A stretch of DNA of 64,000 bases from Streptomyces sp. 2114.4 (GTDB taxonomy: Bacteria > Actinomycetota > Actinomycetes > Streptomycetales > Streptomycetaceae). Below the pieces are notes generated by a model. It worked only from the letters and a program-made list of their open reading frames with translations, was not told where the DNA came from and searched no databases. The stretch spans positions 4,402,001 through 4,466,000 of the forward strand of contig NZ_FYEY01000001.1 in assembly GCF_900187385.1 (NCBI RefSeq), read 5' to 3'. Positions within the stretch are counted from its first letter, which is position 1; each line of letters opens with the position of its first letter. Of the stretch, positions 879 to 19,397 are shown one piece after another. A program made the translations under genes and the position numbers.

Positions 879-3059
879 TTACTCGCGATCGGGGTCCTGC
901 TCTGCGCTCGACGCGTCATCCAAATCCAGCTCAGATTGAACGGGCCGGCCAGGATGGGAGGATCGCCACGCTTCGAACTCCTCGTCTGAGCCCCCGAACC
1001 AGGTGCGAAGGGCCTTTTTGAGCGCGCTGGTGGCCAGCTCTGTTGCCTTTTCCTCCCTTGCACCCGGCCCAAGCGTGGGCTCACTGACCTTGAGCGCGTT
1101 CGACTGCTGCTTGGTGCACAGGTCGAGGTAGAGGCGGCGAGACTGGCCCAAGCCCTTGTCGAACGCCGTGCGGTCGATCAGCCACGGGGCGATGTGTTGC
1201 CACGCCGACGGGGTGGCGAGTGCCTGCAGCCAGAAATACCGGAAGTACACCGCGTTCGGCGTGTCCATGTTAACAATCTGGTTGATCGACTTGCTTGCCT
1301 CCTTGCTGAAGGCGTGCCGGCGATCGTGAGCCTTCCGGCGGTCCAGCTCGAAGAACGCGTTCCAAGCGTCAACGAGGGACGCTGCGAAGGCGGGTAGGTC
1401 TTTGAGCTCGGCTCCACCCGGCTGGTTCTTGCGCATTTCCCACAGAGAGGCAAGGGTCATGATCATGCCGAGCTGGCAGGCGTGAGTGTTGAAGACTGCG
1501 AACGCGGCCTTCGACTGCTTGATGGTGAGGGGGGTCGTTGCGTTGAGGTAGGCGCGGGCACGGTGCTCCTCGAAGTCAGCTTCCTTCTCCTTCAATGCCT
1601 CCCAAGCCCGGATGACATCCGTCTTCACCGGCATGTGACCCGTTCCTTCGGCGCGCCGCCGTTGGTACTCGTCGTAGCTGTCGCGCAGGGTCCAGTAGAT
1701 TCCCACACCGCCGAAGAGGGCGTCATACGCGAGTGCAGAGTGGTTATGGGTGGTATCCCAGCTGTCCTTGAAGGTGGCGAGGCCGGCGGCATGCGCCCTA
1801 TAGGGTTCCGTCTTGGACAGAAGGGTCAAAAAGGCTGTCCCCCACGAGTCCATGAACCGGCCAACCAGCTCCTCTGCGCGGCCCAACGGAAATTCCGTCT
1901 CTCCGATGCCTTCCACGGTGTAGTGGCGTCCGACGTCGCTGAACTCGGGCGGCAGCAGGCTGACGAGGTCGAGCTGCTCGCGCATGAAGCTGTCGCGGTC
2001 CTCCAGTTTCTCCCGACCACCGAACGGTTGCGCCAGGTTGGTCAGGTACTTGGGCGGGCCGAAAATGCACCGCTTGACGACCATCTTGAACAGGTGAATG
2101 TTCGTCATCACGGACCAGCGTGCCGGGCGACTGCCGTTGATCTCGGGGTTGTCGTACTCCACCGCGTATAGCGGCAGCAGGCTCTCGGCCCGGCCACGCA
2201 AGGCGCTCAAGAGACTCCGAGTGAGTACGTTGGACAGCTCGCCGTCTGACAGCAGAATGATTCGAGACTCGCTCGGTGGCCGGGCTTCCTTGTTGACGTC
2301 GACGAAGAGCTTGCGGGCGGCCTCGTGCGGACGTGATGACTCGCCAGTTTCCTCCGGGAACCAGCACACTGTGACGGGGACTTCGATCTTCGCCAGGTCA
2401 GCCTCGGTGACCTGGTGGTCTCGCAGCAGCTGCTCGACCTGCTGCTCGTAGAAGGGCCGGAACTGCTTTCCGGCGCCCTGCCACGAGCGGGACAGAGTGC
2501 GTTCCACAGCCAGCAACCCCATAGCACGATGCTGGCCATCGAGAACAACCAGACTCGACTCGGAGTCGTTCCACCACAGCTTGCCCAGGTTCGCGGGGTG
2601 CAGGTTGCCGTCTGCCCCGAGAAGGCGGTGGATGCGGAACGCATTGCCAGCTTGTTCCTCCCGCCAGGGCGCATCATCGTGGTCCACCGGGATTGGTGCC
2701 CCAAGTGCCGGGAAGGTGGTCGGCCTCTTGGCCTGGAAGGGCAGCAGCACGGCAACGATCGGAGGAAAGAACGCTGGCCCTGTCATCTGCTGCTTGAACA
2801 GATACGGAATCAGCTTGCCCGCGACCCGGTGGTCATCGAGGTCGCGCTGCAGCAGCTGGTTGAAGTCCAGATCCACGGGGTCCATGACCTCGCGAACGGG
2901 CGCAAGGCTCTTGGTGAGCTGCCGCTCCGGCGCGTCGGCCTCTCCACCTAGCCTCGCCTTTGTCATGATGTAGTCGACTCGCCCAGCCGGAGTGTCGAAG
3001 CTCCCCCAGGTTCCCTGGACGAAGTCGCGGAACGTGAGCTTGGAACCTGAGCCAAACAT
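879..3059 (-). CDS. Long DGQHR-motif protein (DndB/DpdB-like)
   Basis: This is a 726-residue protein with a DGQHR motif at about residues 174-178 (VVLDGQHRAMGLL), followed by the family's second block (LFVDVNKEARPPSESR). DGQHR proteins include DndB of phosphorothioation loci and DpdB of 7-deazaguanine loci. DndB is about 380 residues, so this one carries an extra C-terminal half of about 350 residues that I cannot assign. The ATG at 3059 has a GAGAGG about 11 bases upstream. It follows the GHKL ATPase gene on the same strand after a 179-bp gap that contains a hairpin, so it may be a separate transcript or the distal gene of that operon. The role is inferred to be DNA binding or sensing of sulfur-modified DNA in a defence module. 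No nuclease motif was recognised. Confidence 0.85.
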   Translation of the reverse strand: MFGSGSKLTFRDFVQGTWGSFDTPAGRVDYIMTKARLGGEADAPERQLTKSLAPVREVMDPVDLDFNQLLQRDLDDHRVAGKLIPYLFKQQMTGPAFFPPIVAVLLPFQAKRPTTFPALGAPIPVDHDDAPWREEQAGNAFRIHRLLGADGNLHPANLGKLWWNDSESSLVVLDGQHRAMGLLAVERTLSRSWQGAGKQFRPFYEQQVEQLLRDHQVTEADLAKIEVPVTVCWFPEETGESSRPHEAARKLFVDVNKEARPPSESRIILLSDGELSNVLTRSLLSALRGRAESLLPLYAVEYDNPEINGSRPARWSVMTNIHLFKMVVKRCIFGPPKYLTNLAQPFGGREKLEDRDSFMREQLDLVSLLPPEFSDVGRHYTVEGIGETEFPLGRAEELVGRFMDSWGTAFLTLLSKTEPYRAHAAGLATFKDSWDTTHNHSALAYDALFGGVGIYWTLRDSYDEYQRRRAEGTGHMPVKTDVIRAWEALKEKEADFEEHRARAYLNATTPLTIKQSKAAFAVFNTHACQLGMIMTLASLWEMRKNQPGGAELKDLPAFAASLVDAWNAFFELDRRKAHDRRHAFSKEASKSINQIVNMDTPNAVYFRYFWLQALATPSAWQHIAPWLIDRTAFDKGLGQSRRLYLDLCTKQQSNALKVSEPTLGPGAREEKATELATSALKKALRTWFGGSDEEFEAWRSSHPGRPVQSELDLDDASSAEQDPDRE

Positions 3060-3201
3060 TCTTGGTGATGCCTCTCAATCGGTTCTACCGCATGGCGGCG
3101 GATGCTGGTGATGCACGGCGCAAGACGAGCTGGATGCCTTGACGCTTGAGAGCAAGGGACGTCGTTTGGGTGCCGCAGATGAAGGCCCCCGGGGGCCGTT
3201 G

Positions 3202-3228
3202 GGCGGGGTGGGTGCCGAACACCCCGCC
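3202..3228 (-). terminator. Hairpin between GHKL and DGQHR genes
   Basis: A 9-bp perfect stem (GGCGGGGTG / CACCCCGCC) has a 9-base loop. It lies just past the stop of the GHKL gene when read on the minus strand. There is no T-run, so attenuation or partial termination is as likely as full termination. Confidence 0.45.
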
Positions 3229-3238
3229 TGAGGCTCGC

Positions 3239-4969
3239 CTACTGGTCCCTGAACGCCTCCCGCAGAAGCGCCTCGGTGAACATGCCCCAGTAGGTCCGGA
3301 GGTCGTCGAGCCGCTCGGGGTCTGGGTACATGGCCTCTGCGTGGGCGTAGGCGATGAGCAAGTGGTCGACGGCGGTCTGCGCCCGCCGTGCAAGATCGAT
3401 GATCTCCTCGGGGTCCAGGTTCTGTGTGCCCTCATCGGCGAGCTTTTTAAGGGGCAGATAGACCTGCTCGAACAGAGCATGTCGGAGGTTGAACTTGACG
3501 GCGGCCTTGCCGTTCAGATGGTCAATGACCAGTAGTTCCTTGCCGGGCCACGAACCGCCCATGAGGGTGATGGGCTTGGTACGGATCTGCTCGCGGATCC
3601 GCTCGATCTTCTCGGCATCCTCTTCGTGGTCCAGACCGAGATCGACCACAGCCTGCTCGACAACCTTCTCTTCGTCTTCGGGGGTCGCGCCACGGCCGGC
3701 AATGCCTCTCGGGAATTTCGGAAAGACCCGAGCTGCGGTGTCCATCGTCTCGGTGTGCTCACCGTCCTCGAGACGCTTGCGCTTCTCGGTCTCCTTCCAG
3801 TCCGCGCGAACCTTCTTGAGGGCCTGCTTAACGGGTGCCTTCAGCCATTCGCGAAGCTCGCTGCGGAGCTTGCTGACCGGCTCAGTCCCGCGCTTGACGT
3901 TGCGGACCTGGAAGTACTCGTCCAGCTCCGCCGGGAAGCTCACCTCGATTGCAACGTAGCGCAAGACCTTGTCGCTGCGTCCACCTTCGAGCAGCCGTGG
4001 AACGATGTCGTAGTAGATCTCCCGACCGTTGCGCAGGATGCTGATTTTGGCAGTGTTGTCCTCGTTGATCTGGAACTCGGAGATGTCGTGACCCTTGTGG
4101 TCCGTGCTACCGCCTGCACCCGAGTAGGGACGGAATTCGCGGGGCACGATGGCGACGGCAACGTGCACGTTGTGGCCGTCGATCTTCAGATCAGTCTCTT
4201 CGACCAGTTCACCGCGAGGGTCGAGTGGCTTGTAGCGCGAGATGATCCTCGGGTTGTCGCGCAGGAACAGCGGATCATGCAGCGTGGTGAGCTTGCCGTC
4301 CAGCTCGAAGGTCCTGCCGGTGTCGATGTAGGTCCGGAAGGCGCGTGCGATGAACTTGCGGAGCTCGGCAATCTTCTGCTCCAGGGAGGTGCCGTAGGTC
4401 CCGCCGCTGGAAAGACGGTCGATCTTGCCGAACACGACGAGTGTGCCGGATGCGAACGGCGTCTCGTCACGGCTGGTCATCAGCTTGGCCGCCTCGGCGG
4501 GCCACTCCTGAACCTCGTCGGTGGTGATGTAGTGCTGCTTCCCCTCGCGGATCTCCTGTAGGTCGATGTAGCTGTGGTAGAGCTTCGTGCTGCCAGTCTG
4601 TCGGCTGTAGATGTCGATGCGCTCACCGAGGCTGAGCCCGGCGAGTTTGAGTCCGACACCGAAACGTCCCAGCCCCTTTCGCTCGCCGTAGCGGCTGCTG
4701 TACCCCATCGAGAGCACGTGGTGCATCTTCGTGGGCTCGATGCCGACGCCGTTGTCGGCAATGAGGATCCTGTCGATCGTCTTTTTGCCGCGGCCGAAGA
4801 CCGTCCGCACGCGCATCAGGGTGGCCTCGGCCTCGATGGAGTTGTCCAGCGGCTCACCGATGGCCGCGGTCAGATCGAAGCCGGCATCCCGCATGGAGTC
4901 CAGTGCGCGGTCGACCTGAATGAGATCGGCGCGCTGGTCGTGTGGGGCTAGGAACATGGGTGTAGTCAT
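3239..4969 (-). CDS. GHKL (MORC/Hsp90-like) ATPase next to dnd
   Basis: This is a 576-residue ATP-binding protein. The N-terminal Bergerat fold is complete. The N-box is IGEPLDNSIEA (E39, N43), the G1 box is DNGVGI (72-77), and the G2 region is KGLGRFGVGLKLAG (98-111). A second S5-like domain and a charged Lys/Glu-rich segment follow. The arrangement is that of GHL ATPases (MORC, Hsp90, MutL), which use ATP to close as dimers on DNA or clients. It is not a sensor histidine kinase, because no transmembrane or dimerisation-His region was seen. Its ATG at 4969 overlaps the GIY-YIG gene's TGA by 4 bases, so the two are translationally coupled. The likely role is the ATP-driven core of a Dnd-linked defence module. 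The restriction role is inference; the fold call is firm. Confidence 0.9.
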   Translation of the reverse strand: MTTPMFLAPHDQRADLIQVDRALDSMRDAGFDLTAAIGEPLDNSIEAEATLMRVRTVFGRGKKTIDRILIADNGVGIEPTKMHHVLSMGYSSRYGERKGLGRFGVGLKLAGLSLGERIDIYSRQTGSTKLYHSYIDLQEIREGKQHYITTDEVQEWPAEAAKLMTSRDETPFASGTLVVFGKIDRLSSGGTYGTSLEQKIAELRKFIARAFRTYIDTGRTFELDGKLTTLHDPLFLRDNPRIISRYKPLDPRGELVEETDLKIDGHNVHVAVAIVPREFRPYSGAGGSTDHKGHDISEFQINEDNTAKISILRNGREIYYDIVPRLLEGGRSDKVLRYVAIEVSFPAELDEYFQVRNVKRGTEPVSKLRSELREWLKAPVKQALKKVRADWKETEKRKRLEDGEHTETMDTAARVFPKFPRGIAGRGATPEDEEKVVEQAVVDLGLDHEEDAEKIERIREQIRTKPITLMGGSWPGKELLVIDHLNGKAAVKFNLRHALFEQVYLPLKKLADEGTQNLDPEEIIDLARRAQTAVDHLLIAYAHAEAMYPDPERLDDLRTYWGMFTEALLREAFRDQ

Positions 4970-5367
4970 CGTCGGTCCTTCGTCGTGGCGGGCCGCACGT
5001 GCTCGTGGGCGGCATGGATGCGGTCTCGGCGGGCGGCCTGCTGCTGGGGTAGGCAGAAGGCGCAGGGGATGGGATGACCCTCTGGCCGTGCCGGGTGGAT
5101 TCGATTAGAAGCGTCAAGGGCGAGCAGGTGGAACAGCGCGCACTCGACCATGTATGCGCTGGTGGCACTGTGGTGTACGTCGTAGGTGAAGTAGTCGGCA
5201 CGGCGGTCTGAGCAGTGCCGTAAGAGCCGTCGACGGATGTCCGTGTCGCTCCGGCCGACGTAGGTAGGGCGACCATCCTCTGCGTACAGGACGTAGGTGC
5301 CGATCCGCTGCGGCGGTATGAGGGTACGCACGAGGGTCGGACTGAGCCTTACGGGGATGGGGGTCAC
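4966..5367 (-). CDS. Small GIY-YIG nuclease-like protein
   Basis: This 133-residue protein has the paired motifs of the GIY-YIG superfamily, GTYVLY and, 10 residues on, PTYVGRSDTDIRRRLLRH. These give the tyrosines and the conserved Arg, and VECALFHLL supplies a candidate metal-binding Glu. A CAFCLP pair near the C-terminus could bind metal. The start is taken as the GTG at 5367, which overlaps the TGA of the upstream gene (GTGA) behind GAGGCGG; an in-frame ATG further upstream at 5391 is less likely. It sits in a tight three-gene overlap with the sigma-like gene and the GHKL ATPase, so it is the obvious nuclease candidate of that module. Some GIY-YIG proteins of this size act in repair rather than restriction. 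Confidence 0.8.
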   Translation of the reverse strand: MTPIPVRLSPTLVRTLIPPQRIGTYVLYAEDGRPTYVGRSDTDIRRRLLRHCSDRRADYFTYDVHHSATSAYMVECALFHLLALDASNRIHPARPEGHPIPCAFCLPQQQAARRDRIHAAHEHVRPATTKDRR

Positions 5368-5834
5368 GCCACCGCCTCCGCGGCCTGCCACAGGGCCCGC
5401 GCGCGGCGCCGGGCCCGGCTGACGCGCTCACGCATGCGCAGCAGCGGCACCGCTTGTCGGTCGGCTAAGGACACGGCGTCGTGGCCGCCCGCGAGGTCGT
5501 TGAGCAGTATCCGCTCTGCGTGGGTGAGGTTCGGTTCGGTGTTGACCCACGCGAGAATTTCGACGGCCAGAAGGCTGGAATCGGGCTGCCCGCAGTTGAC
5601 GCGGTCAGGGTCGAGCGGGATGAACTGGGCAATGGCTCGGCGGCGCTCGAGCACTTCGTAAGCATGCCCCATGGCCGACTTCGTGCGGTAAGGGGCTGGA
5701 GTAGAGGCGTCCGTCGGGTTGCGCAGGAGCTCGTCGAGCGCACGGTCGATGCGGTCGAGCTCGTAGGTGTCACTGCTGGCCAGCGCCTGCTTCTGCAGCG
5801 CGTTGACCGCCCCGGCGACGGGGTAGCTGATCAT
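5364..5834 (-). CDS. Sigma-region-4-like small protein
   Basis: This 156-residue protein has no firm family. The C-terminal part (LTHAERILLNDLAGG ... RMRERVSRARRRARALW) resembles the helix-turn-helix of sigma-70 region 4, with a basic recognition helix. The N-terminal half is helical and featureless, and no region 2 is seen, so it is not a complete sigma factor. The ATG at 5834 has GGAG 9 bases upstream; in-frame ATGs at 5870 and 5882 lack this support. It is the first gene of the unit leading to the GIY-YIG and GHKL genes and its stop overlaps the next start. A regulatory or DNA-binding adaptor role is inferred. The 250 bp upstream, up to the dndE terminator, must hold the promoter of this second unit. 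Confidence 0.6.
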   Translation of the reverse strand: MISYPVAGAVNALQKQALASSDTYELDRIDRALDELLRNPTDASTPAPYRTKSAMGHAYEVLERRRAIAQFIPLDPDRVNCGQPDSSLLAVEILAWVNTEPNLTHAERILLNDLAGGHDAVSLADRQAVPLLRMRERVSRARRRARALWQAAEAVA

Positions 5835-6085
5835 GCTGTTTCGCTCCGGGTGTCTGGTGGTGGGCCCCATGCGGTGGCACACGTCCGAAAAGTGAAACGG
5901 TGTTATGTGGTTGTTGGTCCAGCGTACTGCCAGGGGCTGACAGGTCGGGAGTGTTTGAGTGAAGTCCGCGTCGTTGAGGGGGCCTTGGTCCCCTACCTAT
6001 AGAGGTCGGGTGGCAGGGAGAGTTGTTGCGCCTAAGAGGAAACATTTTTGATGGCCCGACAGCTCCTAGTGCCACGGGTACGGCA

Positions 6086-6120
6086 AAGCCCGCCTCCCCA
6101 GTGCTGGGGGAAGCGGGCTT
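6086..6120 (-). terminator. Terminator downstream of dndE
   Basis: The outer stem AAGCCCGC / GCGGGCTT encloses an inner stem CCCCAG / CTGGGG. On the minus strand the hairpin ends in TT and follows the dndE stop by 14 bases. It separates the dndBCDE transcript from the GIY-YIG/GHKL unit. Confidence 0.75.
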
Positions 6121-6133
6121 CAACGGGGCGTGG

Positions 6134-6514
6134 CTACTCGGTGGTGATGGTGATGAGGTCCTGGATGGAGCGCAGATCCTGGCGGCCGGCGAGGTAGCCA
6201 ATACCGCGGTGCAGGTGGATCAGCAGGGTCTTGCTTATAGCGGCGTCCGTGGGTTCCTCGCCGTCCTTCGCGCACCGCTGCTTGAGGAGCGACAGGTAGA
6301 CATCGCCGTGTGGTCCGGCGAAAGTCCTCCAGGAGATCTCCACGTTCGAGTCGGTGGTGATGTCCCGCACGAGCGGTGTCGACGGGTCACGTAGAGACAG
6401 CGCGAGCCCCCAGCGGCACAGTTCGTTCCACTGGGTCAGCCCAGTGTGGCGCTTGAGCCAGGCAAGCTGGTCTTTGGCGGCCTGGGAAAGCCGGATAGTG
6501 ATCTCAGACGACAT
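6134..6514 (-). CDS. dndE: DNA phosphorothioation protein DndE
   Basis: This 126-residue protein has the usual DndE length. It contains the N-terminal basic helical segment (RLSQAAKDQLAWLKRHTG), the CRWGLALSL block and the conserved LHRGIGYL segment near the C-terminus. DndE is a small tetrameric component of the Dnd modification complex that binds nicked DNA and is needed with DndC and DndD for sulfur insertion into the backbone. Its start overlaps the end of dndD by 11 bases. It is the last gene of the dndBCDE run, followed at once by a hairpin terminator. The call rests on sequence blocks plus position. Confidence 0.93.
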   Translation of the reverse strand: MSSEITIRLSQAAKDQLAWLKRHTGLTQWNELCRWGLALSLRDPSTPLVRDITTDSNVEISWRTFAGPHGDVYLSLLKQRCAKDGEEPTDAAISKTLLIHLHRGIGYLAGRQDLRSIQDLITITTE

Positions 6515-8495
6515 GGAGGGCTCCCTCGGTCCACCAGTAGCCCTTGCCGACGCGGGTGGTGAACGTGGTGTCGTCGTGCGCGAGGACGTAGCTCTGGGCG
6601 ATGGAGGGCCGCAGCCGGTTCAAGAGGTTCTCGTCAATCTCCTCGTCTGTCGACAGCAGAAGGACCTGCCGGCCGGCGTAAGGGAAGTACCGATCAACGA
6701 GATGTTCGCGGTGGAGGCTGTCCAGGCGCCCGAGAGGGGTGTCGATGACGGTGGGGAGTCGGTTGCCGGCCACCTTGGCCAGCCCCCATAGGAGGGAGAC
6801 GGCCAAGAGCTGACGCTCTCCGGCGCTGAGCCGGGCGGGGTCGACGGGATCCCTGTCCTGGTCGGTCAGAGCGATGGTGAACTTGTCAGTATCGATCCGC
6901 AGGCTCTTGATCAGCCCGCTCTTGCGCATCAGAGTCTGGAAGCTGATCAGGACAGCTACCTGCAGGCTGCTGATGTGCTTGCGCAGGAGAGCGGAGCCGA
7001 AGCGTTCCAGGGTCGCGCGAGCCTTCTCTGCGTAGGTGGCGACTCGCTTGAGCTCCTCCTCGCGGACTAGTGGCAGGGCCTGCTTCTCGCGTGTGCGCTC
7101 GAAGTCGGCCTCAAGCCGCGCCTGGCGGGCCTCGGCTTCTGCGAGCAGTTGGGTGGCCTGTTCGACGGCGGCACGGGCGATGGTCACTTCATCCCTGGCC
7201 GCCTGACGCTTGTCGATAAGGTTTTTGATCTTGCGTTCGTCCGGGACGGCGGCCAGTTGACGTTCAGCCTGCTGCAGCTCGTGCGCACCCTTGTCGGCGG
7301 CTTCCAGGAGTTCGGCAGCGCGAGCCTCGTCAGCTCGCAGAACCTCATCCAGCGTAGACAGTTTCCGGATGAGGTTGTGCGGTAGGCCCAGATCCAAGCT
7401 GAGGTCGGCTGCCGCGGTGCGCTTCTTCCTCTCGACCGTCAGTTTCTTCTTCAACGCGGTGCGGGCTGCAGTGGGCACGCTGTCGGCCAGCTGATCAATC
7501 AGCCATGCATCTCGTGATTCGAGGATGCCGACGACCTGTCGCGCTTCGTGTGCCTCCTGCTCCTGTACGGCCTGTTCCATCAGCGTGGCGAGTTGATCAC
7601 GGAGCAGTGCCAGAGGGAACGCGCCTTCAGCCAGACCGCGCAGGGACTTCTGTGTCTGCGCCAGGCGATCCGCAGCAGCTACCTTGGCCGCCTCGAGCGC
7701 GAGGCGCTCCTCGAACAGATGCCCACCTGCGCGCTTGAATTGTCGCTCTATCTTCTTGAGTTCTGCCTCGGCCTCGGTGTGGCGCTCATTGGCCTGATCC
7801 AGTTCCGTCTCTCGGGCGGACGCCTCCTGGGAGGCTGCCTGCTTCTGAGCCTTCAGGTCGTGGAGCTGCTCAAGGGCCCCCCGGTCCTCTGACGACAGCC
7901 TCTGCCGGCGCTGAAGGACGAGGAGGTCGGTGCGCAGCTGTTCGACAGCCCTGACGCCGAGAAGCGAATGGACGGCGGCTTCGATTACGCCGGCTGCCCG
8001 CTCGGGGTCGGCCAGCTGCTCGACTTTCTCACCGTCGAAGAAGAAGAGCGAGGCAACCTCTAGGGGCAGGATTTCCTCGACGTGCTCTGCCCAGTTCTCG
8101 CTGATCGTGGCGTCATACCGGCCGTCGATGGTGACGGCCAGGTTCTCCCTCACGTTCTTACCGATGAGGGCCCAGGTTCGGTCGACCTCGTAGGTGCGGC
8201 TGCGGCCCTCTACGGTGATCGAAAATTCCAGTTGTAGCGCAGACCCCTTGGCGGAGTCGGCTGCGCGGTTGATGCTTTCGCGCAAATATGTGTCGTACGC
8301 GCGATTGCCTCGCCCGCTGCAACGGGCCCTAGGGCCGTACAGCACGAGCTGGATCGCGTCGAGCAGCGTCGTCTTGCCGCAGCCGTTCAGGCCGCCGATC
8401 AAGATGATCGGACGTTTGGGCTTGACCCGAAGGTCGAGGTGCTGCCGACCTTGGTAGGCGCCGAAGTCTTGGAGTGTCAGGCTATGCAGGTGCAT
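6504..8495 (-). CDS. dndD: DNA phosphorothioation ATPase DndD
   Basis: This 663-residue SMC/Rad50-like ATPase has its Walker A at about residues 34-42 (GGLNGCGKTT). A long coiled-coil middle runs over roughly residues 190-510. The ABC signature is LSAGERQLLAVSLLWG and the Walker B is LPTVIDTPLGRLD, close to the C-terminus. DndD supplies ATP hydrolysis, and probably DNA opening or nicking, for phosphorothioate formation in complex with DndC and DndE. The start overlaps dndC by 14 bases and the end overlaps dndE by 11, so the genes are co-translated. All nucleotide-binding motifs are intact. Confidence 0.95.
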   Translation of the reverse strand: MHLHSLTLQDFGAYQGRQHLDLRVKPKRPIILIGGLNGCGKTTLLDAIQLVLYGPRARCSGRGNRAYDTYLRESINRAADSAKGSALQLEFSITVEGRSRTYEVDRTWALIGKNVRENLAVTIDGRYDATISENWAEHVEEILPLEVASLFFFDGEKVEQLADPERAAGVIEAAVHSLLGVRAVEQLRTDLLVLQRRQRLSSEDRGALEQLHDLKAQKQAASQEASARETELDQANERHTEAEAELKKIERQFKRAGGHLFEERLALEAAKVAAADRLAQTQKSLRGLAEGAFPLALLRDQLATLMEQAVQEQEAHEARQVVGILESRDAWLIDQLADSVPTAARTALKKKLTVERKKRTAAADLSLDLGLPHNLIRKLSTLDEVLRADEARAAELLEAADKGAHELQQAERQLAAVPDERKIKNLIDKRQAARDEVTIARAAVEQATQLLAEAEARQARLEADFERTREKQALPLVREEELKRVATYAEKARATLERFGSALLRKHISSLQVAVLISFQTLMRKSGLIKSLRIDTDKFTIALTDQDRDPVDPARLSAGERQLLAVSLLWGLAKVAGNRLPTVIDTPLGRLDSLHREHLVDRYFPYAGRQVLLLSTDEEIDENLLNRLRPSIAQSYVLAHDDTTFTTRVGKGYWWTEGALHVV

Positions 8496-9990
8496 CGGTG
8501 GTGGTCTCTTCGTTCAGCGACAGCTGGGTCGGGTCACTCTCGCGCAATGCCTTCAGCTTCTTAGCGAAATGCAGCGCGTCGTCCGCGTCCTCGTAGTAGC
8601 CCTTCTTGATTGCTTTCTCCAACGACTCGAACAGGCCGGCGCGTCGGGACATCGTCCGGTACTGCCGCTCGACCGCGAGGAGTTCACGCGTCATGGAGAA
8701 GTGGATCGGATCGTCCTCACATGCTTCCTTGAGTAGACCGATCTCCTCCGCGCCCAGCACGAGCTGCTCGTCCAGGGGCAAGCCGGGGAACGTCTCGCCG
8801 GTCACCTCTTCGTAGATCCGCGGCACGGAGTCCTCAACTTCGTGCTTGTCGAACACCCAGATCCGGCGGATCTCGTGCAACTCCTTCATCGAGATCAGTT
8901 CGATGCCGCGCACGTGCTCCGGGGCTTTCTTGTGGTTGCGGACCTTGTTCTGCGCGCTGAGCAGCTTGCGCAGCCAGTCCTCGCGAGCGGACTGCTTGTA
9001 CGGTCCAGGAATGGTTCGGTCGCCGTCGCCGAGCAGTTGGACATTGCCGTTCATCCGGCGGAAGTCGCGTGTCTGGCTCTCGTTATTGACGTCGTCGAGC
9101 TCGTTGCGGAGCCTGAGCAGCGGCCGCATCCACTCCTTCTCGTCGTCATTGCGAATCATGGCAGTCATCGACTTGTCCTGCTCGACCAGCGTGCACGTCC
9201 AGCAGCCGAACCGGCTGTCGCCGCATGAGGGTGTGGTGTCGTCAACAACCAGCGGGCATTCTGAATCATCAGATGCGCCCTGATACATCGTCAGCAGGTC
9301 TTTGTTGTCGTGACCCCACGGGTTGGGGTACTGCATCAAGAACGCCCACACCTCCTCGGTCGACCAGTCCTCAATCGGGCTGTAGACCAGGGAATTGGGG
9401 AGCTTTCCATTGGGTGAAAGGCGGTCGCGAACGCGACGCTTCTCGTGCCGGGCCATCGCCCGAGCCCGGGCCTGGCTTTCGGCCTTGCGGATGCCCAGCA
9501 CGAGGATGGTCTCCCCGTGACGTCGCACAACTCGTCGGATGAAGGCGTTAGACGGCTTAATCTTCAACCGCTCTGTGCACCAGCGGAACTTCGGCCGGGG
9601 CGCGGGGTAGCCCTTGCCGATCAAGCTGACCCAGAATGTGTCTTTGACGTCCGGGGTCAGCTTGTGTGACTCGACCGGAAGCTGCTGTTCCTGCGCGGCG
9701 GCACGCATGGTGTCCAGGGATTGCCCGACCCAGGCGGAGACGACAGGGTTCTCCACCAGGGTGTCCGTGCTGATCACGTGGACTGGCTTGGTGCGCTGGT
9801 CGGTGGGCAGACCCTTGAGCGCGAGCCATACCAGTTGGAGCACTGCAGTGGAGTCTTTCCCGCCGCTGTACCCGATGACCCAGGGCACTTCATCCGCGAC
9901 ATAGAGTTCGCGAATTTCCTCCGTCAGCTCTTCGACGACCTCTGCCAAGGGCCTGTCTTGGAAGGTCCTCGTCGAGTTGGGGGTGCTCAT
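8482..9990 (-). CDS. dndC: DNA phosphorothioation sulfurtransferase DndC
   Basis: This 502-residue protein of the PAPS-reductase/ATP-pyrophosphatase fold has the PP-loop SGGKDS at residues 42-47. A Cys cluster (CGDSRFGCWTC, after SECPLVVDDTTPS) can hold the 4Fe-4S centre described for DndC. It takes sulfur mobilised by DndA, activates the DNA backbone and transfers sulfur within the DndCDE complex. Its ATG at 9990 overlaps the dndB stop by 4 bases (ATGA). Length and motifs match the family and nothing is degenerate. Confidence 0.95.
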   Translation of the reverse strand: MSTPNSTRTFQDRPLAEVVEELTEEIRELYVADEVPWVIGYSGGKDSTAVLQLVWLALKGLPTDQRTKPVHVISTDTLVENPVVSAWVGQSLDTMRAAAQEQQLPVESHKLTPDVKDTFWVSLIGKGYPAPRPKFRWCTERLKIKPSNAFIRRVVRRHGETILVLGIRKAESQARARAMARHEKRRVRDRLSPNGKLPNSLVYSPIEDWSTEEVWAFLMQYPNPWGHDNKDLLTMYQGASDDSECPLVVDDTTPSCGDSRFGCWTCTLVEQDKSMTAMIRNDDEKEWMRPLLRLRNELDDVNNESQTRDFRRMNGNVQLLGDGDRTIPGPYKQSAREDWLRKLLSAQNKVRNHKKAPEHVRGIELISMKELHEIRRIWVFDKHEVEDSVPRIYEEVTGETFPGLPLDEQLVLGAEEIGLLKEACEDDPIHFSMTRELLAVERQYRTMSRRAGLFESLEKAIKKGYYEDADDALHFAKKLKALRESDPTQLSLNEETTTDAPA

Positions 9991-11123
9991 GACTCTCCTC
10001 GCAGATAGGCATCTTCCACGCGCTGTTCCTCGGCGCTCAGCTCTAGCTTGAGGTGCTTACGCACGTAGTTCACGGTCAAGGTCAAGTTCTGTCGGCTCTT
10101 GGAGACCCGCCCGCCGACAAGGGCTCGCCCTTCCCACTCCGTGTTGGAACGCGTCCAGTCCACAGTGGACAGGCGATTGAGGGTTAGAGCCCAGCTCCGT
10201 GGCGCCAGGGACTTTCGCAGCAACGTGTTGCCGACGCGTCCCAGTGCATGCAAGGCGATGCCGTGGCTGTGCAGGAAGTCGCTGCGCATCTCTGATGCCG
10301 ACATCTCACGCCGTCGCACCATGTCCCACTCTGGGATCAGTGCGTCGATCGCGCTCCAGTACGCCTCGGCCAGCTCCTGGGACTGTTGCTTGCTGATTTT
10401 TAGGTCCTGCAGCAGAGACTGCGTGGCGTAGTAGAGGGAGCTCAGAGTGAACAGCTTACGGGAGCGCTTTGACAAGGTGCTGTTCTCCATGTCCACGTGC
10501 CCCTTGAACATCGGGGCACGCATGGCCAGCAGCCGCACCGTGGTGGACAGATCGTCACGGTGGTCGTACAGCACACCGATGGAGCGGGGTGGTCTCACGG
10601 CATGCCGGTTCAAGTCGGCGAACATCTGCTGGCAGCGAGCAAGGCCGGCGTCGTGAAAGAACACCACGGCTATCGTCTCCTCGCCGAGGTCGGGGTTCTC
10701 CTTGAGCGCCTGCTCGATCGCGGCGCGTCGGTGCTGGCCGTCGTTGATGAGGAACCGGGCAGCCATCGAGATGCGGATCTGGCCGGCGCGCATGCCCACG
10801 CCACTGTCTGCAATGCCCCCGAAGCGGATGTCGCCATCGACAGAGGCCGTTAGCGCACTGAAGACGTAGTCGGTGGGGTTGTCGATGATGTAGCGGGTCA
10901 GCGCCGGCAGTCGCCCCTTGTTCAAAGTCCGCTGAGCGCGTACCTCAGGGGCCAGCTCGTCCTCATCGAAGAGGAAGATCTTGGGGATGAGGCGGAGTGG
11001 GCACATGGACACGTAGAACTCGCGTCCTGCCTGGATACCGCGGATAGCCGGAAATACGTACTCAAAACCGGCAGACGTCGGCGATTCGGCAGGTTGAGGA
11101 GCGACAGAAGATCCCACCTGCAC
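9987..11123 (-). CDS. dndB: DndB, DGQHR regulator of phosphorothioation
   Basis: This 378-residue protein has FLINDGQHRRAAIEQAL (DGQHR at 128-132) and the family block FADLNRHAVRPPRSIGVLYD. DndB is dispensable for modification itself. In studied hosts it represses dnd transcription and tunes modification frequency and site choice. The start is a GTG at 11123. I see no ribosome binding site before it; a TACGAT ends only 5 bases upstream and could be a -10 box, so the transcript may be leaderless. The gene heads the overlapping dndBCDE operon and diverges from dndA, as in S. lividans. The intergenic palindrome at 11132-11153 is a likely control site. Confidence 0.95.
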   Translation of the reverse strand: MQVGSSVAPQPAESPTSAGFEYVFPAIRGIQAGREFYVSMCPLRLIPKIFLFDEDELAPEVRAQRTLNKGRLPALTRYIIDNPTDYVFSALTASVDGDIRFGGIADSGVGMRAGQIRISMAARFLINDGQHRRAAIEQALKENPDLGEETIAVVFFHDAGLARCQQMFADLNRHAVRPPRSIGVLYDHRDDLSTTVRLLAMRAPMFKGHVDMENSTLSKRSRKLFTLSSLYYATQSLLQDLKISKQQSQELAEAYWSAIDALIPEWDMVRRREMSASEMRSDFLHSHGIALHALGRVGNTLLRKSLAPRSWALTLNRLSTVDWTRSNTEWEGRALVGGRVSKSRQNLTLTVNYVRKHLKLELSAEEQRVEDAYLRGES

Positions 11124-11131
11124 ACGCTATC

Positions 11132-11153
11132 GTACGTCAGGTAAATGACGTAC
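11132..11153. promoter_or_regulatory. Perfect palindrome in the dndA/dndB divergent promoter
   Basis: GTACGTCA (11132-11139), six bases, then TGACGTAC (11146-11153) form a perfect 8+8 bp inverted repeat in the 69 bp between the chosen starts of dndB and dndA. From memory, DndB of Salmonella binds a TACG-spacer-CGTA motif upstream of its own operon; here TACG and CGTA are 12 bases apart. Autoregulation by DndB, or binding of another dimeric regulator, is inferred. Confidence 0.7.
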
Positions 11154-11192
11154 ACAGCACGTGGGAATCACGCTCGAAGGTGGTTGGGTTCG

Positions 11193-12338
11193 ATGGTGAC
11201 GTACCTCGACGCGGCGGCGACGACGCGCGTGGACCAGAGAGTGGCCGATGTTGTCCTGCACTGGATGACGGCCGAGTTCGGGAACGCCGGTAGCCGCCAC
11301 GAGTACGGTCTCCGCGCCAAGCGCGCGGTTGAACGTGCCCGCGACTACCTGGCGGGGACCGTTGGAGCGGAGCCCGATGAGTTGATCTTCACTAGTGGCG
11401 CTACGGAGAGCAACAACATCGCTCTGCTTGGGCTCGCTGCCTACGGCGAGCGGACCGGCCGGCGCCACATCATCACTTCCGCTATCGAGCACAAGGCGGT
11501 GCTTGAGCCCCTGGAGTACCTAGCCCGCCGGGGTTTCGAAGTGGACTTCCTCAAGCCCGGCCCCTCGGGCCGGGTCGCGGTCGAGGCTGTGTTGGAGCGG
11601 TTGCGACCGGACACCCTGCTGGTGTCACTGATGCACGTGAACAACGAGACCGGGGTCATCCAGCCCGTTGTCGATCTCGCGCGCGAGCTACTATCCACTC
11701 CGACTTACTTGCACGTGGATGCAGCTCAGGGGTACAGCAAGGTCCCTGCCGATCTGACCGCCCCGATCGACATGATCAGCATCAGTGGTCACAAGATCGG
11801 CGCGCCCAAAGGCGTAGGGGCTCTGGTTACTCGACGTCGAGAAAGCATGGACGACGAGCGGCCTCCCTTGGAGCCGATCATGTTCGGCGGCGGCCAGGAG
11901 CGCGGCCTGCGGCCCGGCACCCTGCCCGTGCCCTTGATCATGGGCTTGGCCGAGGCCGCGAAGGTCTTTGAAAGGGAGCATGCCCAGTGGAAGGCTGCCG
12001 CACTGGAACTGCGCGCGCGGCTCCTCGAAGGGTTGGCATCAGAGCGCTTCCACCTGAATGGTGACCAGGATCACGTTGTTCCGCACATCGTTAACGTCTC
12101 ATTCGAGGACGTGGATTCTGAAGCGTTTCTCGTCACGCTCAAGGAGCTGGTTGCGGTCGCGACGGGCTCTGCGTGCACTAGCGCCTCCTACACGCCGAGC
12201 CACGTACTCACCGCAATGGACCTGCCTGACGCGGTGGCGAGGAACGGGCTGCGGTTTTCCTGGTATCCCGAACAAGCAGATGGCCTGGACGTCGCGGAGC
12301 TGGCCAACGGAGTCGGGAAGCTCCGGCCGCGGGTCTGA
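11193..12338 (+). CDS. dndA: Cysteine desulfurase DndA
   Basis: This is a 381-residue IscS/NifS-type PLP enzyme that releases sulfur from L-cysteine as a persulfide for DndC. It opens with the family start TYLDAAATTRVD. The PLP lysine lies in ISGHKIGAPKGVG, and the catalytic Cys in TGSACTSASYTPSHV. The start is the ATG at 11193 behind GAAGG (a GTG follows at 11196). An open frame runs back to 11145, but that extension would add residues the family lacks. It is divergent to dndBCDE and ends 12 bases before the convergent methyltransferase gene. It has its own promoter and shares the intergenic palindrome. Confidence 0.95.
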   Translation: MVTYLDAAATTRVDQRVADVVLHWMTAEFGNAGSRHEYGLRAKRAVERARDYLAGTVGAEPDELIFTSGATESNNIALLGLAAYGERTGRRHIITSAIEHKAVLEPLEYLARRGFEVDFLKPGPSGRVAVEAVLERLRPDTLLVSLMHVNNETGVIQPVVDLARELLSTPTYLHVDAAQGYSKVPADLTAPIDMISISGHKIGAPKGVGALVTRRRESMDDERPPLEPIMFGGGQERGLRPGTLPVPLIMGLAEAAKVFEREHAQWKAAALELRARLLEGLASERFHLNGDQDHVVPHIVNVSFEDVDSEAFLVTLKELVAVATGSACTSASYTPSHVLTAMDLPDAVARNGLRFSWYPEQADGLDVAELANGVGKLRPRV

Positions 12339-12350
12339 GTGGGCCAGGGC

Positions 12351-13784
12351 CTAGTCGCGAGTTCGGACGAGTCGGTGCCCGTGGAGGGTTCGCTGGCACC
12401 GAGCGAGCTCGCTCTCCCAGCCGGCCTCGGTGCCAATCAGGTGTGGGTATGCATACAAGCCAGCCTTGACCTCTGCCTCTGTCAGGCGCTGGTACTTCGG
12501 CGCATCCGGGTCGTCGGGGTGCAGGAACTCATGCTTGCGGTGCAGCAGCGGCCGATTGCTACGACCTCCGTACGAATGATGGGAGGTCTCGAAGGTCCCC
12601 AAATCCACCTGGTAGGACGTCAGCAGACGCGGATGGGGGTCACGGTCGAACTCTGGGTAGTCCAACCAGCTAACCGCACGGCCCCGGTGGCAGAGTTTGA
12701 CAACGGTCCACGCCTGCGGTCGGCCGGCTGCAATCGATGCACAGTGCTCGTACAAGCGCAGTACGGTCGGCATTCGATCCACCGCTCTGCGGTGCACGTA
12801 AAGCGCGGTCGGGGTCAGCTTGCCAACGGTGGAGGCGCTCATAGCTCCGCGGATGTAGGCGTCGTCCCGCAGCTTGAGCAGCAGCCGGTCGGCTCGTTGG
12901 CACGCCTCCTTGTATGACGAGAAGAACGCCCGAATGTCCAGCTGCACAGTTAGCGGCAGACTCGTGAACGGGCCGCGCCCGTTGAAGAGTTCAACTGCAA
13001 GGAACAGCAGCGTGTTGAGAGTGGTGCGTTTGGCCCCCTCACTCACCTTGGCTGGGTCGGCGGACTCGCGTGCAAGGCGGCGTACCTCCGCCTGGCTCAG
13101 GTGCGCCAGTAGTTGGGCTGTGAGCCGGGGCGTTTCTTCCAGGCGCGGAGGGCGCCCGCGTCGCTCCACGTGGTCGATGAGCGCGGCTACTGCGGTAGCG
13201 GTGTCGCTCGAAGCCAGCCACTCGTCATCGGCGATGATGCGGCGTGCGAGATAGCTCAGCCGGTCGCTGTCGGCCTTGAATGCATAGATGATCCCTGGCC
13301 CGGCGGAGACGGCCCGGACACCAGTGATCTCTTCAACGTAGATCCGAAGCTCGTTGGCCCCATACAAGTGTTGGAATGTCTTGCGCCGGGTCAGCAGACC
13401 GTCCCCGAACTCTTGACCGTTGACCTTCGATCTTTCCCAGGACAGGCGTGCGGAAGCGATCAACACCTTCCCTGCGAGGTCCCAGGCGCTCTGGAGGGTG
13501 CGCCGCCGTTCGACAGGGTCTTCGATGACGTTTAGGACGTAGGTGAGAAGCACCACCGTGGCTGGCTTCAGTTGCACATCGGGCTCGTAGAAGGGATCCC
13601 AGCCGGCGGCGTCACACCCCAGGTGCCGCAGTGCGCGAACATCTTCCCCGCGCCCGCATCCGTAGTCGAAGACAGCATCGTCGGGAAGGATCTGTCGGTC
13701 GAGTAGGGCTTGGCGGGCGGGAACGGACAAGCTGCCTCGCGTGATGGCAGTGAGCCATCTCCTGCTTCTGGCCTCTTGAGACAT
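12351..13784 (-). CDS. Dnd-associated putative DNA methyltransferase
   Basis: This 477-residue protein has a class I SAM-binding motif at about residues 39-46 (VFDYGCGRGEDVRAL), then GWDPFY and LLTYVLNVIEDP. It matches the pattern of the methyltransferase family recurrently found beside dnd genes (TIGR04096-like, by memory). Its target is unproven; the family is usually assumed to modify DNA or a Dnd component. The ATG is at 13784. It is convergent with dndA and is not part of either dnd transcript. SAM binding is supported by motif; methylation of DNA is inference from context. Confidence 0.85.
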   Translation of the reverse strand: MSQEARSRRWLTAITRGSLSVPARQALLDRQILPDDAVFDYGCGRGEDVRALRHLGCDAAGWDPFYEPDVQLKPATVVLLTYVLNVIEDPVERRRTLQSAWDLAGKVLIASARLSWERSKVNGQEFGDGLLTRRKTFQHLYGANELRIYVEEITGVRAVSAGPGIIYAFKADSDRLSYLARRIIADDEWLASSDTATAVAALIDHVERRGRPPRLEETPRLTAQLLAHLSQAEVRRLARESADPAKVSEGAKRTTLNTLLFLAVELFNGRGPFTSLPLTVQLDIRAFFSSYKEACQRADRLLLKLRDDAYIRGAMSASTVGKLTPTALYVHRRAVDRMPTVLRLYEHCASIAAGRPQAWTVVKLCHRGRAVSWLDYPEFDRDPHPRLLTSYQVDLGTFETSHHSYGGRSNRPLLHRKHEFLHPDDPDAPKYQRLTEAEVKAGLYAYPHLIGTEAGWESELARCQRTLHGHRLVRTRD

Positions 13785-18812: not shown

Positions 18813-19397
18813 CTATCGGATGGGCGCGGCCTGCCGCTCGCGCTCCTTGCGTTCCTTCTCAGCGGCTTCGAAGGCGGCGGTGAACTCAGCCAGTTCCTGC
18901 TCGGTCATCAGGGCGACACCCAGCTCGTCGGCGACGTCCGTGATCTTGGCGGCTGCCTCGGCACGCGCGGCGTCGGGGGCGTCGTCGTCCAGCAGGACCT
19001 CGAATTCGGCGTGGTAACCCCATGCCTCGCTCCACTTGACCGCGATCTCGACACCGCCGAAGCGGAAGTTGTGCCGAAGATTGGACGCCTCGTGCATCGC
19101 TCCCTCGAACCCGAGAGCGTTGAACACCTTCACCGCGGCATCCACGTCGGCCGGGGCGATGGCGAACTCGGTCTCCGCGAATGCGGCGCCCTGCCCGATC
19201 TTGCTTCCCTTGAGGGTGATCTTGGCGGTGCCGGCAGCCGTGTTGTCGGTGACCTTCAGCAACTGGTCCGGCAGCACGTAGAAGTAGATGTGCTTGTCGT
19301 CGGGCCCCAGGTCTTCGCCGTCCCTCTTCAGACGGTCGACGAGCTGGTCACGGGCCTCTCTGCTGAAGCGGGCACGCATCTCGATCTCGATGGGCAT
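18813..19397 (-). CDS. CYTH-domain protein (CyaB/ThTPase-like)
   Basis: This 194-residue protein begins with EIEMRARF, a variant of the CYTH ExExK motif with Arg in the Lys place. It continues with AKITLKGSK, the acidic pair in AETEFAI and KWSEAWGYHAEFEVLLDD, matching the alternating basic and acidic strands of a triphosphate tunnel. CYTH enzymes bind triphosphate substrates (class IV adenylate cyclase, thiamine triphosphatase, inorganic triphosphatase). The start is the ATG at 19397 behind AGGAGG with 9-base spacing, not the upstream ATG at 19424. It is part of the cargo run with HD and NDK-like genes, which supports nucleotide or polyphosphate chemistry. Confidence 0.8.
   Translation of the reverse strand: MPIEIEMRARFSREARDQLVDRLKRDGEDLGPDDKHIYFYVLPDQLLKVTDNTAAGTAKITLKGSKIGQGAAFAETEFAIAPADVDAAVKVFNALGFEGAMHEASNLRHNFRFGGVEIAVKWSEAWGYHAEFEVLLDDDAPDAARAEAAAKITDVADELGVALMTEQELAEFTAAFEAAEKERKERERQAAPIR

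Follow-up and report, generated by a model that had tools for sequence, protein, structure and literature searches.

A recurrent SIG, GIY-YIG and GHKL gene module linked to phosphorothioation systems, seen beside the dnd cluster of Streptomyces sp. 2114.4

The dnd locus and the proteins of the module

The window, the whole stretch of DNA analysed here, comprises 64,000 nucleotides (G000:C1:4402001-4466000) of the 8.07-Mb genome of Streptomyces sp. 2114.4 and carries a dnd cluster for DNA phosphorothioation (PT) adjoined by the genes of a real, recurrent and PT-linked module. Three of these genes, the trio, encode a small protein with a C-terminal helix-turn-helix (HTH), termed SIG, a GIY-YIG nuclease and a GHKL ATPase, and they are followed by the gene of a long protein with a DGQHR motif. 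The features of the locus are as follows.

879-3059, minus strand: DGQHR protein, 726 aa (TIGR03187 E 7e-6, sub-cut-off; Pfam DndB E 0.009)
3239-4969, minus strand: GHKL ATPase, 576 aa, MORC/MutL/TopoVIB-like (HATPase_c_3 E 4e-19)
4966-5367, minus strand: GIY-YIG nuclease, 133 aa (Pfam GIY-YIG E 4e-6)
5364-5834, minus strand: SIG, 156 aa, C-terminal HTH, the constant partner of GHKL
5854-5887, minus strand: covarying RNA hairpin in the SIG 5' leader, just upstream of the Shine-Dalgarno GGAG (5844-5847)
5990-6031, minus strand: conserved GCAACAAC-n-CACCCGACCTNTATAGGTGAGG, a possible promoter or operator, noted for its recurrence across loci
6086-6121, minus strand: GC-rich inverted repeat after dndE, a putative terminator from its sequence
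6134-6514, minus strand: dndE (TIGR03184 above cut-off)
6504-8495, minus strand: dndD (TIGR03185 above cut-off)
8482-9990, minus strand: dndC (TIGR03183 above cut-off)
9987-11123, minus strand: dndB (TIGR03233 above cut-off)
11145-12338, plus strand: dndA (TIGR03235 above cut-off)
12351-13784, minus strand: DNA phosphorothioation-associated putative methyltransferase (TIGR04096 above cut-off)

The cluster at 6134-13784, methyltransferase gene included, is complete, with every member above its curated cut-off, as the first-pass annotation of this DNA had claimed for dndABCDE. The layout given there also holds in every coordinate. The four genes lie beyond the inverted repeat on the same strand as dndE, with the SIG and GIY-YIG genes sharing 4 bases (GTGA), the GIY-YIG and GHKL genes sharing another 4 (ATGA), and the DGQHR gene placed after a gap of 179 bases. 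Comparison with S. murinus and S. silaceus gives ratios of nonsynonymous to synonymous substitution (dN/dS) of 0.07-0.25 for all four, and this purifying selection on each indicates that the genes are real. The nearest relatives of the module are found in Streptomyces species, and, judged by blast and gene size, neither dnd nor Pbe nor DndFGH-like genes lie in the 17 kb left of the window.

The conserved residues of the GHKL protein comprise the N-box (E39/N43), the G1 motif (D72xG), the G2 motif (GRFGVG) and an S5-type K359, all invariant in 27 sequences. These Bergerat motifs and the S5 domain assign it to the MORC/paraMORC ATPases at a level above any particular paraMORC family. The closest solved sequences are MORC3/4 and TopoVIB, and the structure model (predicted local distance difference test score, pLDDT, 81) is matched by Foldseek to MORC2, MORC4, Hsp90 and MutL. 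The best NCBIfam/PADLOC match is MzaB, the MutL-like ATPase of the MZA system (E 1e-16 / 6e-12); identity with MzaB was rejected on score (60 bits versus a cut-off of 850), and neither Z1 nor the other MZA partners were found among the neighbours examined. In the GIY-YIG protein the catalytic residues Y25, Y36, R47, E75 and N88 show no variation across 21 actinobacterial, cyanobacterial and Bacillus sequences, placing it in the superfamily, and a CxFC pair is likewise invariant.

SIG ends in a weakly recognised LuxR/sigma-region-4-like HTH whose nearest solved sequences are LuxR-type at E ~0.5 and which is weakly similar to DosR-type proteins, while its N-terminal half is probably helical. SIG has no Pfam match, no family reaches significance, and the matches to both region 2 and region 4 that membership of the sigma-70 family needs were not obtained. 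The earlier label sigma-region-4-like thus fits no more than loosely, the HTH being generic.

The 726-residue protein has a DndB/ParB-like N-terminal part bearing the motif VVLDGQHRAM, in which DGQHR (residues 174-178) is invariant in 17 orthologues, and a C-terminal half modelled as all-helical at pLDDT ~80. It does not give the full-length match needed for DndB membership (Pfam DndB 15.5 versus 29.1 bits), its TIGR03187 score is 25.9 against a cut-off of 58.85, and a profile comparison with true DndB aligns just 90 columns around DGQHR. It contains no recognisable nuclease domain and no HNH match, and the comparison of its model with the PDB returned noise alone, the C-terminal domain of SspE at E ~2 being no evidence of kinship. 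In DndI the DGQHR motif is required for NTP hydrolysis (PMC11662687).

Linkage to phosphorothioation systems and constancy of the module

The GHKL alignment served as query for a context-blind survey of 84,980 species, whose pattern search is biased towards close relatives, the counts not extending to very distant GHKL proteins. The result was 30 GHKL loci in 30 species (actinobacteria, cyanobacteria, Bacillus and one acidobacterium). Genes of dnd lie alongside GHKL in 24 of these, counting L053, L058 and L070, where dndC is at or slightly past the locus edge, and ssp genes lie alongside in two (L069, L071). Three genomes (L061, L064, L067) have dndC on another contig and that of L068 has a DUF4007 (SspB-family) gene; all 30 genomes carry a PT system or marker gene, in 26 cases alongside. 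The predicted recurrent linkage to dnd is borne out by these counts, and the description of the module as a Dnd partner is correct as to linkage but too narrow, the tie being to PT generally. Hitchhiking in defence islands was rejected on the co-occurrence in 30/30. The same figures make it very improbable that we see in the trio a common MORC-type operon for restriction or defence that merely gathers in PT islands: related GHKL proteins in other restriction contexts, described in PMC2292703, and a trio on a Nocardiopsis plasmid without dnd would fit such an operon, but every genome has a PT system or marker, 26 of them next to GHKL, and the sole constant DNA methyltransferase partner is the dnd-associated one.

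Among 244 Streptomyces, dndC scores above cut-off in 10 (~4%), three of these being orphan copies, and two genomes, each of them dnd-positive, have a close GHKL orthologue. Three Streptomyces loci with dndC above cut-off (L087, L088 and L089, in G103, G147 and G025) lie on plasmid-like contigs with no blast-detectable DndD or DndE beside them, and annotated dndC is present on several Streptomyces plasmids (PLSDB matches H29-H36). Directly past the cassette at L047:15200-21728, L048:16599-18860 and L075:18894-21737 are more defence-like genes (nSTAND3-Mrr, Mokosh-like, PDC-S73-like and TmtA-like), which suggests defence islands.

The distances of GHKL proteins correlate closely with those of SIG (r 0.93), GIY-YIG (0.86) and the DGQHR protein (0.86) and less so with DndD (0.67), compared with 0.98 between DndC and DndD. 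Loci with a close trio and a distant dnd type (L052, L065) and loci with a distant trio and a close dnd type (L062, L076) both occur. Amycolatopsis jejuensis and Nocardia beijingensis have a window-like trio (69-71% GHKL) beside distant dnd genes (37% DndD), and Streptomyces sp. RPT161 and Sphaerisporangium have a distant trio (51-53%) beside window-like dnd genes (51-52% DndD, 71-73% DndC). The trio is placed downstream of dnd on the same strand, convergent to it or on its far side, depending on the locus. Exchange of the trio between dnd lineages and its varied placement mean that the link is not mere descent, and by these comparisons the association arose several times.

The constant core is the SIG-GHKL pair, with SIG adjoining GHKL in 29 of the 30 loci. 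GIY-YIG is present in 23 and is gone without remnant from six (L049, L058, L060, L064, L073, L076); in the acidobacterial ssp locus (L071) GHKL is followed by no more than a C-terminal fragment resembling GIY-YIG (11879-12001, plus strand), and SIG is not recognisable. The DGQHR gene, found in 17/30 and each time directly after GHKL, is a separable dnd-linked partner. The trio occurs without it in company with Pbe (L062, L063, L070, L076), with the DndI-like 'Orf5' (L073) and in the ssp loci, and the DGQHR gene occurs without the trio in the dnd loci of two Streptomyces (L032 and L033, with pbe genes next) and a Nonomuraea (L046). The DGQHR gene and Pbe do not exclude each other, as L053, L058, L032 and L033 show. 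What had been called a four-gene module is thus confirmed as a set of genes recurring together with dnd, but around a core of two, with a nuclease missing from six loci and a detachable fourth gene.

URI/GIY-YIG genes at dnd boundaries have been read as stand-alone backup effectors (Rakesh et al. 2024, PMC10853773), and the set described there, which shares the placement of GIY-YIG near dndABCDE, probably includes members of the window's family. Together with the separability of the trio and the DGQHR gene, this reading would favour effectors at the dnd edge that act independently, as backup or suicide devices, and bring about cell death once the main system has been blocked. We consider that explanation unlikely, since the nuclease does not stand alone: its start overlaps SIG, its stop overlaps the start of GHKL, and its sequence coevolves with GHKL. 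The terms MORC, GHKL and DGQHR do not occur in the main text of PMC10853773, and the SIG/GHKL operon, the ssp linkage and the RNA leader are not described there. The claim that no Dnd partner of such composition had been described accordingly gives way for the nuclease and probably stands for the SIG/GHKL operon.

A covarying RNA hairpin ahead of SIG

The final ~60 bases before the SIG start are kept in most loci despite the differing flanking gene. The hairpin in this leader has an 11-pair stem with one mismatch and a bulged, nearly invariant A. Compensatory changes are seen in 9 of the 11 pairs, and the covariation of 0.343, against 0.152 when shuffled (0/500), is lost when the partner strand is slid. 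A covariance model (R1) places the hairpin before SIG in 26 of the 30 loci, including L058, which lay outside the set used to build it. Its strong matches among the 244 Streptomyces are confined to the two trio genomes, and a phylum sample of 376 added one weak match; this and the weak matches in the genus (L092-L094) lie inside or between unrelated genes and were treated as chance. Rfam gave no credible match near 5854-5887. The cyanobacterial leader of L068, also outside the model, takes the same fold (z -4.0), and the window's own hairpin sequence, which has a U-C mismatch, is not the minimum-energy fold (z +0.75). A GTG further upstream (5882) was dismissed as the SIG start because the covarying hairpin lies between it and the ATG at 5834, which the Shine-Dalgarno sequence precedes. 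Many loci, some of them without dndE next to SIG, have the GCAACAAC-n-CACCCGACCTNTATAGGTGAGG element ~145-200 bases ahead of SIG.

The simplest reading is that the leader would exert translational control of SIG, possibly in an autogenous manner. In Mycobacterium asiaticum (L063) a second copy of the hairpin (19133-19192, plus strand; 37.9 bits, E 2e-7) stands ahead of a YbjN/TY-Chap1-like gene near that species' own dnd/trio locus, suggesting that the leader RNA may control more than SIG. The trio on the Nocardiopsis plasmid has the same RNA leader, and a divergent HNH nuclease gene adjoins it.

Other effectors and interpretation of the module

The DptH/DndH model (TIGR03237), which detects its positive control in E. 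coli (H240) at E 0, found no match in 37 genomes, the window's own and trio-bearing or related ones, although a divergent DndH could escape it. The PbeA PLD-helicase and the PbeC CxC ABC ATPase of PbeABCD were not found in the window's first 16 kb or in the 17 kb to its left, and Pbe genes are present in several relatives. None of the module genes reaches the SBD-HNH cut-off (NF045808). The match in the window genome is split and sub-cut-off (53 and 39 bits) and falls within a ScoMcrA-like SRA-HNH protein with a weak SBD-like N terminus (C1:3668826-3670256; L108:6826-8256), ~0.73 Mb from dnd. DndFGH and a McrA-type enzyme had been noted as not seen in the window; an enzyme resembling the latter is present elsewhere in the genome, and the module need not be the sole candidate PT-related nuclease. 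ScoMcrA-type enzymes are thought to be incompatible with matching PT, and here such an enzyme coexists with an intact dnd cluster. Full SBD-HNH enzymes are encoded elsewhere in four trio genomes, and in S. aidingensis (L060) an SBD-HNH enzyme is encoded away from the locus.

The trio of L069 is followed by pbeA, pbeC, a DUF4007 SspB gene, SspC-/SspD-like genes and a gene that is SspE-like by sequence. The whole run in this organism, Bacillus sp. FJAT-27445 (L069/L100), spans ~25 kb with the trio, pbeA/C/D-like, sigma-70-like, SspB/C/D-like, extra PP-loop and SspE-like genes, bringing three PT-linked effector sets together. Six Streptomyces ssp loci (L034, L035, L036, L040, L041, L042) and one on a Trichormus plasmid (L045), which also has a long DGQHR protein, combine a distant GHKL ATPase with a PLD protein and an SF2 helicase, forming a parallel PT-linked GHKL-nuclease set.

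Several known systems resemble the module in part. PbeABCD (PMC6459918) and DndFGH occupy the same position beside dnd but consist of other protein families, and several loci have both Pbe and the trio. SspFGH was rejected as a known equivalent, SspH being described as FtsK-like and GHKL not being mentioned in the paper. In DndI and SspE, DGQxR NTPase domains sense PT, and these proteins (a DUF262 DGQxR NTPase fused to an HNH nickase, PMC11662687) share with the 726-residue protein the ParB-like DGQ(H/Q)R motif and the PT link. The latter differs in its long helical C-terminal part and its lack of HNH, so that the nuclease would be the separate GIY-YIG protein. According to Iyer et al. 2008 (PMC2292703), MORC/paraMORC ATPases occur in restriction operons with a proposed clamp or looping role. 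The encoding of a GHKL+S5 ATPase with a nuclease by a DNA modification system is common to both, whereas the partners given there are SF2 helicases, RE/HNH/Vsr nucleases and methylases; that text nowhere uses the term GIY, and the passages covered contain no dnd link. GHKL, Dnd and phosphorothioate were joined in no open-access paper found, a search that left subscription papers and supplements outside, where an earlier mention may exist.

The gene content, the intact active sites, the purifying selection, the coevolution within the trio, the PT linkage and the covarying leader form the basis for the reading we prefer, with a chance we put slightly above even, that SIG, GIY-YIG and GHKL, usually with the DGQHR protein, are a PT-linked effector module, probably one that attacks DNA of the wrong PT state. 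We infer a complex in which GHKL would dimerise on ATP and engage DNA as a clamp or looping engine of the MORC/MutL type. SIG would bring it to DNA and perhaps also, or instead, control expression of the operon. The GIY-YIG protein would be a nickase acting in trans, in the way that MutH serves MutL, and the DGQHR protein, with a DndB/SspE-type NTPase fold, would sense the PT state and couple it to licensing of the complex. The structured mRNA leader would restrain the operon, as expected of a potentially self-toxic effector with a presumed role in defence.

Four observations weigh against this effector reading. A 31st trio, on Nocardiopsis flavescens plasmid CP054934 (L043), has neither dnd nor DUF4007 on the plasmid, whose sequence is all that is available. 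Some loci also contain PT effectors that are already known (Pbe, the DndI-like Orf5 and, by sequence, SspE). The N-terminal half of the 726-residue protein is not reliably modelled (AlphaFold pLDDT ~30) and its kinship to DndB is remote. Finally, in two of the six loci without GIY-YIG (L049, L060) the stretch examined contains no further PT effector of a known kind, so the nuclease may not be essential. The constancy of SIG-GHKL where GIY-YIG is missing, the elaborate regulation of the SIG leader and the complete effector sets (Pbe, SspE) beside the module in some loci would suit a rather doubtful alternative in which SIG-GHKL assists or regulates the modification machinery, perhaps by remodelling DndCDE/SspBCD on DNA or by setting their level, and GIY-YIG is an optional add-on rather than the effector. 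The module is nevertheless absent from most dnd loci, and modification thus does not need it, while the active residues of GIY-YIG are invariant over great distances wherever it is present and its sequence coevolves with GHKL.

A more far-reaching and tentative extension of the effector reading is that SIG-GHKL forms a core PT-reading clamp of the MORC/MutL type, driven by ATP, that might license exchangeable partners (GIY-YIG, the DGQHR protein, perhaps Pbe) and be silenced by a structured leader RNA of a new class to which SIG or a ligand binds. Dnd introduces double-strand PT and Ssp single-strand PT, and as the pair serves both hosts the clamp may recognise the backbone sulfur itself. Many dnd clusters, especially in Streptomyces, lack DndFGH, and as a reader of their sulfur mark the module offers a concrete and recurring candidate, its nuclease and ATPase intact and its place beside both families of PT system. 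If the reading is true, MORC/MutL-type clamps would enter the biology of backbone modification, and the new leader RNA would offer a handle on how such effectors stay off.

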